From positions 186,001 through 250,000 of the forward strand of contig NZ_FWZU01000001.1 in NCBI RefSeq assembly GCF_900177375.1: 64,000 nt of DNA, in the 5' to 3' direction. Source of the stretch: Desulfovibrio gilichinskyi (GTDB lineage: Bacteria > Desulfobacterota > Desulfovibrionia > Desulfovibrionales > Desulfovibrionaceae). The position numbers and the translations under genes are program-made. Below, in pieces: positions 16,405 through 19,291 of the stretch. The notes beneath the pieces were generated by a model. It was not told the origin of the DNA. It saw only the letters and a list, made by a program, of their open reading frames with translations, and searched no databases. Numbering within the stretch: the stretch's first letter is position 1; each line of letters opens with the position of its first letter.

Positions 16405-17262
16405 ATGTTTACAGGTATTCAAGAGACTGCTTCACGGCAGAAAATAGTTCTGCCAAGATTTGCCAAGTTGGCTTTGCAGCCTCCTCAATGCCTGCTTATT
16501 GAAGGCGGTTCAGCTGAAGACAGGCATGATATGGCTCGTTATTGGGCCTGTCTGTTAAATTGTGAAAGCGGGGGAACTCCCTGCGGCAATTGCAAACCAT
16601 GTCTGCAAATAGCTGATAACGCTTTTAATGATTTTCTGCTTATTGACCGCTTCGATGAAGACGGTGTTGAAAAGCAGGATATTCCAGTAGATAATGTTCG
16701 CAAGTATTTCCCGGTCTGGGGCCAACCGCCCCACGGCCGGGGAACTCGCGTTACCGTAGTTGAGGAAGCTCAGCACTTAAACGGTAATTCCGCCAATGCT
16801 CTTCTCAAAACTCTCGAAGAACCACGCCCCGGAAATGTCTTTGTACTTACCGCTCCTCAGCGGGAGAGACTGCTTGGAACTTTAGTCTCGCGCAGTTGGG
16901 TCATTACTCTTGCGTGGCCTACTGAAACTCAGAACAGCCCCGAAGTTTCCGACTGGGTAAACGGCATGCTAGGATTCTGGCGTTCCGGTCAAGGTTGGTT
17001 TGCACGAACTTCCGCAAAGGGGGCTCTTGATAAAGAGCAGGCTCTCAAAGTCATCATCGGCTGTCAGCGTGAGCTCCGCAATGCCCTCAAAGATCCTCAA
17101 TTGACGCCTGCCGCCAATGCCCTTTCCGGACTTTTCGATCCCAAAGGGTTACGAAGACTTGATCTGGTTCTCGGCAAGGCTCAGGAAAATCTGAATTACA
17201 ATGTAAATCCGGCATTAGTTCTCGACTGGGTTTGCACCGCCGCAATGCCTCGCAGAAAATAA
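16405..17262 (+). CDS. holB: DNA polymerase III delta-prime subunit
   Basis: This clamp-loader component opens the sliding clamp during replication. The 285-residue protein has an N-terminal AAA+-like region with a degenerate Walker A (IEGGSAEDRHDMAR), as in delta-prime, the four-cysteine zinc module C-ESGGTPCGNCKPC near residue 55, and the sensor/SRC-region equivalent NGNSANALLKTLEEP near 128. The zinc module and LLKTLEEP motif are diagnostic for the HolB/DnaX group; the short length and absent P-loop lysine favour delta-prime. It is translated from ATG 16405 directly after purA. A hairpin lies 38 bases after the stop. Confidence 0.88.
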   Translation: MFTGIQETASRQKIVLPRFAKLALQPPQCLLIEGGSAEDRHDMARYWACLLNCESGGTPCGNCKPCLQIADNAFNDFLLIDRFDEDGVEKQDIPVDNVRKYFPVWGQPPHGRGTRVTVVEEAQHLNGNSANALLKTLEEPRPGNVFVLTAPQRERLLGTLVSRSWVITLAWPTETQNSPEVSDWVNGMLGFWRSGQGWFARTSAKGALDKEQALKVIIGCQRELRNALKDPQLTPAANALSGLFDPKGLRRLDLVLGKAQENLNYNVNPALVLDWVCTAAMPRRK

Positions 17263-17288
17263 TAGTTTTAGGGACCGGGTTTCTTTAA

Positions 17289-17330
17289 GCAAAAAAGAAA
17301 CCCCGATCAGACGAATGGGTCTGACCGGGG
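17289..17330 (-). terminator. Terminator of RNA copy 1
   Basis: The stem CCCCGATCAGAC / GTCTGACCGGGG (17301-17330; one mismatch) is followed on the minus strand by TTTCTTTTTTGC. On the plus strand it is followed by TAAATATAATTTTTTTT, so it may also end the purA-holB transcript. Confidence 0.85.
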
Positions 17331-17709
17331 GTAAATATAATTTTTTTTCGAGTTACTTAGTTACGCGCTTTAAACTCTTAAATCGGTTAAAATCTGTTGT
17401 TTTCCGAGTTAATTCAGAATCCGAATCCGATTTTCACCACTTAAACTGTTTAAATCTGATGTTAGCAAGTTATCCAGATACGCGCATCAACCGCTTTGAG
17501 GGGTTCCATCTCAATAGCTTTGCCGGATTGCCCGGCCGTTTCCAGTCTCTCCGTGGGCCCGAAGAGGAGATTCTAACAGAACTCTCGCAGTAGGATTACC
17601 CCTCGGCTTGAGCTTCTTGAAGCTCGTTTTGGGAATGTGATTTCAACGCTAGGTTCACTCCCGTTGGGGTTAAATGACAACTCCTTCTTTAAGGTAGACT
17701 TCCATCGTT
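17290..17709 (-). ncRNA. Structured RNA, tandem copy 1 (longer form)
   Basis: This non-coding transcript of about 420 nt is predicted on the minus strand. A near-consensus promoter precedes it and an intrinsic terminator ends it. It shares a core of about 185 nt (17490-17677) with a second copy 500 bp away. In RNA sense the core contains: a CAAC-GGGA...GTTG...TTCCC arrangement that can form an H-type pseudoknot (17631-17666); a hairpin GAGCTT/AAGCTC (17610-17625); a long-range stem GAGGGGT (17598-17604) with ACCCCTC (17498-17504); an internal CTCC/GGAG hairpin with a GGGCCC loop; and a GCCGG/CCGGC hairpin near 17522-17536. The extra length relative to copy 2 is an AT-rich 3' extension. No reading frame is conserved between copies. 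The RNA family is not recognised; 6S, tmRNA, RNase P and SRP signatures are not seen. Confidence 0.72.
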
Positions 17710-17715
17710 GACTTT

Positions 17716-17744
17716 AAAATACACATGTTGAGGCGAGTTGTCAA
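17716..17744 (-). promoter_or_regulatory. Sigma-70-type promoter of RNA copy 1
   Basis: Minus-strand TTGACA (17739-17744), exactly 17 bases, then TATTTT (17716-17721). The predicted start is near 17709. Spacing is identical to the promoter of copy 2. Confidence 0.8.
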
Positions 17745-17887
17745 TCAATTAACTGGAATTTTGCAAAATTTTATAACATTTTTAAATTAAATTTAAAAAT
17801 TAATAATATTACAGAGTTATGCTGTGTGATGCTTAAGAAGAATCTATCTGAGTTAATTTTTAACTTTAAAAAACAAAAAATAATTCA

Positions 17888-17927
17888 AAAAATAAACCCC
17901 GACCAGAATATTTCATTCTGATCGGGG
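17888..17927 (-). terminator. Terminator of RNA copy 2
   Basis: The stem CCCCGACCAGAAT / ATTCTGATCGGGG (17897-17927, one mismatch) is followed on the minus strand by TTTATTTTTTG. Its sequence is related to the copy 1 terminator (CCCCGA-CAGA), with base-pair differences on both arms. Confidence 0.88.
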
Positions 17928-18190
17928 TGTTTAAAACTGATTTTTCGAGTTGACTTAAAAAGACACGTTTTAACCGTTTTAGAGGGGTTCCGTCTTTTGC
18001 CGGCCGGATATCCCGGCTGTTCTCATCTCTCCTAGGGCCCACAAAGGAGAGACTAATAGAACTCTCGCGTTTGGCTTACCCCTCAAGTTGAGCCTCTACG
18101 TCAGGCTCGTTATGGGAATTTGATATCAACGCTAAGTTCACTCCCGTTGGGGTTAGATAAAAGCCATTTTTAGTGGCTACCTTTACCTTT
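17889..18190 (-). ncRNA. Structured RNA, tandem copy 2 (shorter form)
   Basis: This non-coding minus-strand RNA of about 300 nt is the homologue of the copy just downstream. The shared core is 17975-18155. The hairpin GAGCCT/AGGCTC (18090-18108) corresponds to GAGCTT/AAGCTC in copy 1, a compensatory base-pair change that supports an RNA role. The long-range stem GAGGGGT (18078-18084) with ACCCCTC (17982-17988) is conserved exactly, as are the AACCCCAACGGGAGTGAAC block and the GCCGG-N5-CCGGC hairpin. The CTCTCCT/AGGAGAG stem and the outer GTTCT/AGAAC pairing are stronger here. A 5' hairpin AGCCA/TGGCT has an analogue in copy 1 with different sequence. It lies downstream of the FMN-dehydrogenase gene on the same strand but has its own promoter. 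Family unknown. Confidence 0.72.
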
Positions 18191-18196
18191 GATTCA

Positions 18197-18225
18197 AATA
18201 TACACTTCGTAAAAAGCTGCGTCAA
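18197..18225 (-). promoter_or_regulatory. Sigma-70-type promoter of RNA copy 2
   Basis: Minus-strand TTGACG (18220-18225), exactly 17 bases, then TATATT (18197-18202). The predicted start is near 18190. It lies just after the stop codon of the upstream dehydrogenase gene. Confidence 0.82.
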
Positions 18226-18280
18226 TATATTCTACTGTTTTGTTATGCACTTTTTTTTAATGATTTAAGCGATGTAGTTG

Positions 18281-19291
18281 TTAACAATATAATGCTGAAA
18301 ATGCTACGGAATCAGCTTTCTGCGTTCCGGTAAGCACCATAGCCTGAGTCAGTTCTGACTTTAATTGATCAATATATTTTTCTGCTCCTTCCTGTAATCC
18401 GCCAATAGTCGCTATTGAGAAAGGGCGGCCTATCATGACGGCATCTGCGCCGAGTGCGAGCATTTTGAATACATCGATTCCTGTTCTTACTCCGCCGTCT
18501 GCCAAAACGCAGCACTGGCCGGCAACAGCTTTTGATATTTCATGTAAAACTTCGGCAGATCCGGGGCAGCAGTCAAGGACGCGTCCACCGTGATTGGATA
18601 CGACGATTCCTTTTGCTCCGGCATCAATAGCCATTTTAGCTTCATCAGGAGTCATTATTCCTTTAAGAATGAAATCAGCATTGACGGATTCAATTATAGT
18701 ACGAAGTTTTTTAACAGATTTAGGAGTAACAGGGCGGCCCATTTTTCTCAGAGTGATGAGTCCGGCTGCATCGATATCCATACCGATGATTTTAGCACCG
18801 GTCTTTTCAGCTTTTTCAAGCTTCATAAACAGTTCTTCATCTTCCCAAGGTTTAATGAAAGGAATTCCATGTCCTTTAACTGCTTCAATAGCAGCGAATC
18901 CGCTTTGGTGAATGAAGTCCGGTACGCCGTCGCCAGTACAGCCGATGATTCCTTTGGCTGCGCAAGCTTTCAGCTTTGCAGAAATGTAATCGAGTTCTTC
19001 TATTTTTCCACCCATATTGAATGAAATTCCGCCGATAGGCGCAGCGATTACAGGAATATCAAGCTTCATTCCCATAACTGTAACGCTGGTATCAGGTTCA
19101 CTGGCATCGTGAATGGTGCGCATGTTAAGTTTAAGATCAGCAAGGGCTTTAACATTGTTTTTAAAGCTTGAAGCTGTACCTAATCCGCCCATTCCGGGCA
19201 CTTCGCCTACGCAGGCATTACCGTTGCATACCGGACAGACCTTGCAAAACCCTTTCATTAATTCTCTGGCATTATCGCGAACTGATTTCAT
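18281..19291 (-). CDS. FMN-dependent alpha-hydroxy-acid dehydrogenase/oxidase
   Basis: This 336-residue member of the LldD/glycolate oxidase FMN family has an N-terminal cysteine cluster (CKVCPVCNGNAC, residues 17-28) that may bind a metal or Fe-S centre; it is typical of the anaerobe subgroup. The barrel has the FMN/substrate motif DAGAKGIVVSNHGGR near 230 with the catalytic His and Arg, LADGGVRTG near 265 and GADAVMIGRP near 285. It probably oxidises an L-2-hydroxyacid such as L-lactate, but the substrate is not determined. An AGGAG site precedes the ATG. It is the third gene of an apparent operon: GntR/FadR regulator, TauE/SafE permease, then this enzyme, with gaps of 15 and 45 bases. Confidence 0.85.
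   Translation of the reverse strand: MKSVRDNARELMKGFCKVCPVCNGNACVGEVPGMGGLGTASSFKNNVKALADLKLNMRTIHDASEPDTSVTVMGMKLDIPVIAAPIGGISFNMGGKIEELDYISAKLKACAAKGIIGCTGDGVPDFIHQSGFAAIEAVKGHGIPFIKPWEDEELFMKLEKAEKTGAKIIGMDIDAAGLITLRKMGRPVTPKSVKKLRTIIESVNADFILKGIMTPDEAKMAIDAGAKGIVVSNHGGRVLDCCPGSAEVLHEISKAVAGQCCVLADGGVRTGIDVFKMLALGADAVMIGRPFSIATIGGLQEGAEKYIDQLKSELTQAMVLTGTQKADSVAFSALYC

Follow-up and report, generated by a model that had tools for sequence, protein, structure and literature searches.

The described systems that come closest to the locus analysed here are 6S RNA, which is a single long bulged hairpin; the CsrB/RsmZ RNAs, which carry repeated units within one molecule and differ in unit and core from the element described below; and OLE, ROOL and GOLLD, which are stand-alone structured bacterial RNAs, much larger and from other lineages. 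According to the available part of one report, in OLE, ROOL and GOLLD symmetric kissing loops connect one copy to another, with a GGCC palindrome in one of the three (PMC12286853). The retroviral dimer initiation loop, as described in the available part of PMC7357161, has a hairpin loop whose GC-rich palindrome of six bases is flanked by conserved purines on both sides. Among the non-coding RNAs of a related sulfate reducer, 18 Rfam families are reported in the available part of PMC11124144, and that of PMC2864571 lists three delta-Proteobacteria motifs with Rfam numbers.

We analysed a window of 64 kb, meaning the whole stretch of DNA under study. In it, a gap of about 1 kb between holB, which belongs to the DNA polymerase III delta subunit family by Pfam, and an FMN-dependent dehydrogenase gene holds two minus-strand copies, A and B, of one element. 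Their cores (175 and 176 nt, respectively) share 80% identity across 154 nt by BLAST, and no third copy was found elsewhere in the window's genome, either by BLAST or with R1, a covariance model built from 22 copies of the element. In window coordinates, the parts are the following:

18220..18225, minus strand: -35 hexamer TTGACG of copy A (TTGAC precedes the core in 23/23 copies)
18197..18202, minus strand: -10 hexamer TATATT of copy A, with a putative RNA start near 18190
18157..18196, minus strand: leader of copy A, with the 5' hairpin AGCCA/TGGCT
17982..18156, minus strand: core of copy A, 175 nt, matched by R1 at C1:203982-204156 with 165.1 bits; hairpins PA and P2 are followed by P1, which encloses P3b/P3 and P4
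18035..18040, minus strand: palindromic loop GGGCCC of hairpin P3 in copy A
17929..17981, minus strand: tail of copy A, with a single repeat unit
17896..17928, minus strand: intrinsic terminator of copy A
17739..17744, minus strand: -35 hexamer TTGACA of copy B
17716..17721, minus strand: -10 hexamer TATTTT of copy B, with a putative RNA start near 17709
17674..17715, minus strand: leader of copy B, with a weak 5' hairpin
17498..17673, minus strand: core of copy B, 176 nt, matched by R1 at C1:203498-203673 with 178.4 bits
17555..17560, minus strand: palindromic loop GGGCCC of hairpin P3 in copy B
17331..17497, minus strand: tail of copy B, in which the profile finds two repeat units
17301..17330, minus strand: intrinsic terminator of copy B

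Each copy is very probably a stand-alone structured RNA gene, and the predicted transcripts of about 300 nt (A) and 410 nt (B) would each start from a sigma-70-type promoter and end at their own terminator. The original prediction had assigned a promoter TTGAC(A/G)-17-TAT(A/T)TT, a shared core and an intrinsic terminator to each copy. All of these were recovered, with the promoters at a near-constant place in the copies of relatives and a core of about 175 nt. Its tandem pair likewise stands in the window, whereas across the genus only 6/17 genomes are paired and 11/17 carry a single copy. The 5' hairpin, the GGGCCC loop, a 5' segment that can compete with P1, and the repeat tail are additional features that it had not described. 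In copy B, a 14-nt inverted repeat (86%) links the -35 region (17735-17748) with the leader (17670-17683) and might allow the promoter to be covered by the leader or by a protein; no such repeat is listed for copy A.

Compared with the described systems, the element resembles 6S RNA in that it also stands alone and has a core of roughly 180 nt, but its predicted fold is multibranched. Moreover, the 6S model (RF00013) has a single hit per genome in 11/11 genomes of the genus, always away from the element; in G000 it lies on contig C5, while the element is on C1, in line with the earlier denial of a 6S identity. With OLE, ROOL and GOLLD the element shares the character of a stand-alone structured bacterial RNA, and the palindromic loops that join copies there may do so here; a repeat tail like that of the element does not feature in the available part of PMC12286853, and the three families are absent from both the gathering-score and the permissive Rfam matches. 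The retroviral dimer initiation loop belongs to an unrelated RNA and is alike in manner of working only; where it has conserved purines (PMC7357161, available part), the element has a pyrimidine before the palindrome in 18/23 copies. As in CsrB/RsmZ, the repeated units within one RNA would make titration possible, but GGA is only slightly raised (4-12 per RNA; 159 in 23 RNAs against about 133 expected at 1/64, counted irrespective of loop position).

The original prediction had recognised no known family at this site. Indeed, Rfam 15 at gathering score gave 0 matches in the 64-kb window and in the loci of four relatives, and a permissive search of 17240-18300 returned nothing but scattered families that scored far under the cut-off. 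None of the delta-Proteobacteria motifs in the available part of PMC2864571 matched the window, Desulfovibrio is not mentioned in the available text of RNA-discovery papers including that one, and we found no prior report of the element in the open-licence literature. Orphan structured bacterial RNAs are already known as a kind, and what lacks an Rfam match is this particular family, with its loop palindrome and variable repeat tail.

The element is present in 17/17 examined genomes of the window's genus, six with the tandem pair and 11 with a single copy, giving 23 copies (for G008 and G010, the count comes solely from BLAST and the profile applied to their loci). A BLAST query covering part of copy B yielded E < 1e-10 in 16/17 genomes and nothing better than E 0.0085 in the 41 genomes of the order that were searched from outside the genus; the copy of the 17th, G002, was picked up by R1 at 76.6 bits. 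The covariance-model search of the order that had been proposed with the original prediction matched the element convincingly in one genus only. With R1 on 219 genomes from 47 genera, all 15 drawn genomes of the genus matched, and the one match outside it (L047, 17.1 bits) looks by eye like coding DNA. R2, a model that includes the G002 copy (out of register in two helices), matched convincingly in those 15 alone out of 218 genomes of the order (46 genera) and reached at most 17.8 bits elsewhere. Among 395 genomes of the phylum, R2 matched convincingly only in the window's own genome; the runner-up reached 23.1 bits with E 0.0023 per genome, of which about one is expected by chance among 395. 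The weak model matches outside the genus look like chance, judging from the two that were inspected, L047 being coding-like by eye and L105 patchy. At the sensitivity used, the element thus looks limited to one genus, and since the model searches score only 7-12 candidates per genome, more diverged relatives may be missed.

Searches guided by neighbouring genes and by sequence patterns gave a similar picture. The FMN-dehydrogenase gene lies no more than about 1.5 kb from the element in 14/17 genomes and holB in 8/17, while one genome has neither at that distance; in four genomes (L004, L005, L006 and L007) a gene other than holB adjoins copy B. The FMN-dehydrogenase protein was matched in 23/31 genomes, one being G002, and some of the matches in other genera were only 47-57% identical. 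Of the 25 FMN-dehydrogenase loci obtained with flanks of about 1.5 kb, 24 come from other genera, and at these R1 found nothing credible (one match of 7.7 bits) and R2 nothing at E <=1. A pattern scan of genome contigs returned 26 loci: R1, applied to 13 of them, matched only L096 and L101, both records of the same genus, and R2 gave nothing above 8.2 bits on the remaining 13. Two nhmmer matches were dropped before all counts, L019, which by eye reads as enolase coding sequence, and L022, by eye a long inverted repeat; a pattern match on a viral contig, L120, gave no model match at the pattern site. The L022 inverted repeat (L022:1467-1690; G051, another genus), which by eye includes a GCCGG-type hairpin, could itself be a separate repeat element.

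In a tree of the copies, the B copies form one group (96/94) and ten single copies another (96/97), whereas the A copies need two changes. This suggests, without proving it, that the duplication is older than the split of the six tandem-pair genomes.

The core features recur in relatives: hairpins PA and P2, followed by P1 (GAGGGG/CCCCUC) enclosing P3b/P3 and P4, with TTGA within the PA loop of every copy. A protein-coding gene was rejected, and the original prediction was right to see no conserved reading frame: no frame of the core is stop-free in more than 4/23 copies, and the cores, 169-182 nt long, are spread over all three length classes modulo 3. Most stem pairs are invariant within the 22 close copies. 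In the structure drawn for these, 95.7% of pairs are standard; shuffles give 94.9%, and slid partners 36-53%. Four pairs are changed on both sides in these copies, a number reached by 8/500 shuffles, while further pair types are no better than in shuffles (316/500) and RNAalifold gives no covariation support (term +0.01). Single-sequence folding beats shuffles by a modest margin only, with z -1.87 and -2.01 for the window copies and -1.50 for G002; the case for structure rests on comparing copies. The core sequence is also conserved beyond what the stems require.

Strict covariation is contributed mainly by G002 together with P2, P3b and the terminator. The G002 copy replaces GTGA/TCAC by TGCG/CGCA in PA, CTCC/GGAG by CTGA/TCAG in P3, GTTCT and its partner by GTCTC/GGGAC in P3b, and GCCG/CGGC by ACCG/CGGT in P4 (its strands were entered in the helix table by hand). 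Despite these new stem letters, it preserves the promoter, the closing helix, the GGGCCC loop and the terminator, and its own minimum-energy fold, computed without the relatives, holds P1, P2, P3, P3b, P4 and PA. The paired change GAGCTT/AAGCTC versus GAGCCT/AGGCTC, which had been read as selection on RNA structure, is real, and so are terminator differences that keep pairing: 98.7% of terminator stem pairs are kept, where 1000 shuffles average 86.1% and peak at 92.5%, for 19/23 copies with stems trimmed by hand to 12 bp and G005A, G005B, G003 and G002 left out. Leader hairpins and terminators were picked as best-pairing stems and so pair by construction, and the shuffle control covers the terminators only. 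The leader hairpin varies in its letters by lineage (AGCCA/TGGCT, AGTCA/TGACT, GTTGT/GCAAC, ACCGG/CCGGT), and G009B is the one copy of 23 whose stem stays at 4/5 pairs. Overall, homologues preserve pairs rather than codons, which supports the earlier view of an undescribed, duplicated structured RNA.

Scans of the locus found four promoter-like sites, compared to 2.5 (sd 1.6) in shuffles, and four terminator-like sites, compared to 1.0 (sd 1.1), so that any single site is weak evidence. What counts for the promoters is instead their constant place across copies. TTGAC lies upstream of the core in all 23, and the distance between the two equals the promoter length plus 40-43 nt in 22/23, the exception being G015 with a leader of 59 nt. 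At a spacing of 17 nt, which was set in advance by script, the hexamer past TTGAC reads TA...T in 22/23 copies and GATAAA in G002. In the latter genome, a separate terminator-like hairpin is seen by eye between the FMN-dehydrogenase gene and the RNA promoter (L046:1360-1390). Taken together, we are highly confident that the element is a real structured RNA family, and one that is presumably expressed.

The P3 loop hexamer is GGGCCC in 22/23 copies and GGGCCT in G013A, while its flanks and the loop length vary; the chance of a hexamer being a palindrome is 1 in 64. A pyrimidine precedes it in 18 copies, namely T for A copies and C for both B copies and the remaining single copies; in five (G001, G002, G012, G014 and G015) the preceding base is A. 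The element thus has a conserved self-complementary apical loop, as kissing-loop homodimer RNAs do, and as a plain duplex GGGCCC paired with itself is worth -12.5 kcal/mol. In the energy model, the mean unpaired probability of the hexamer exceeds 0.5 in 14/23 copies; in the other nine, namely 8 of the 11 single-copy genomes and G007A, it is predicted to pair elsewhere.

Downstream of the core, tail units of 44-48 nt are arranged around ACGCGT, each consisting of a short hairpin-like stretch (AAC..GTT arms) plus this motif, and number from 0 to 8 by copy. Counted by nhmmer at E < 0.01, three genomes having supplied the seed of the profile, there are none in G002, 0-1 in A copies, two in B copies, and, among single copies, 2-4 in eight genomes, five in G014 and eight in G012. 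As G002 lacks tail repeats, membership of the family does not depend on a tail. Tandem Repeats Finder reported a period of 44 with 6 copies in G012 and no tail repeat in G014 or the window. A G012 tail query against G000, G012 and G014 found nothing off the locus at E < 0.01, in a search insensitive enough to miss the window's own tails. The greatly expanded tails of G012 (L010:1665-2035, 8 units) and G014 (L016:1674-2000, 5 units) represent natural tail-length variants.

We propose, as a possible explanation of the whole that we hold to be somewhat short of even odds, that the element is a stand-alone structured RNA acting as a trans-acting scaffold with a loop dimer and a tail array. Action in trans is suggested because each copy ends in a terminator of its own and no gene intervenes between this and the core. 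The P3 hairpin would present GGGCCC, and two copies may pair loop to loop, as A-A, B-B or A-B; such pairing is our first guess because the conserved loop hexamer is self-complementary and natural RNAs kiss symmetrically. Against it speak the predicted exposure of the hexamer in just 14/23 copies, the 1-in-64 odds of a chance palindrome and the preceding pyrimidine in 18/23 copies, unlike the purine-flanked retroviral loop. The tail units would serve as repeated binding sites for a protein or RNA partner, with tail length setting the valency, and opening and closing of the core could be due to the 5' segment that competes with closing helix P1. Dimer pairing together with tail binding is, as a mechanism, rather doubtful. 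That the family represents a new class of RNA, with RNA-only dimers through GGGCCC loops, a partner number set by the tail and mixed A/B dimers, we consider unlikely.

The repetition of the tail unit, with its AAC..GTT arms and ACGCGT, up to eight times is also what would be expected of titration RNAs. A monomeric RNA whose core and tail bind or titrate a protein in the manner of 6S or CsrB, with the loop as a protein site, would in addition fit the sequence conservation of the core beyond stem needs and the slight rise in GGA (159 versus about 133). As the RNA is not 6S by model and the GGA excess is small, we see this as a tentative alternative, within which a CsrA-type role is not favoured.

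A different use of the core is suggested by its central strand: GAGGGG(U) may pair either with 5' ACCCC/CCCUC or with 3' CCCCUC, toggling upon signal binding. Since the 5' segment can pair with the central strand, to the exclusion of P1, in 23/23 copies, such a two-state fold is a serious rival to the loop dimer. At least five contiguous Watson-Crick pairs are available on both sides in every copy, with the 5' segment in two registers, and the 5' pairing appears in the predicted lowest-energy folds of several single-copy relatives. However, runs of C and of G will pair in any case, the pair count is an uncontrolled one, and the RNA runs into a terminator, with no gene seen downstream in the same transcript. 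As an account of the element, a conformational switch seems to us quite unlikely.

Long rigid cores such as this are unusual in seed-pairing RNAs. This speaks against a regulator that base-pairs in trans with messenger RNAs through exposed conserved segments (the UUGA of the PA loop, CGCGAGAG and the tail units), as does the search for Hfq (PF17209), which was found in 0/5 genomes of the genus searched, while control rings turned up in 5/14 named genomes. Its own promoter and terminator and the divergence of the A and B copies, as seen in paralogous small RNAs, would suit such a regulator, which we judge improbable all the same. A functionless remnant, selfish repeat or silent locus, to which the tandem duplication, the variable repeats and the restriction to a single genus might point, is very improbable, given that 17/17 genomes retain the element with promoter, stems and terminator intact and that copy B has no plasmid or phage match, for which reason a plasmid or phage element was also rejected.

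There are few structured RNAs in bacteria whose role is unknown. Functional RNA oligomers, in turn, are rarely observed in nature, according to the available part of PMC7357161. The element described here is small, with a core of about 175 nt, is duplicated in six genomes and occurs in a genus whose five Hfq-searched genomes gave no match. Its natural tail-length variants make both dimerisation and valency directly testable.
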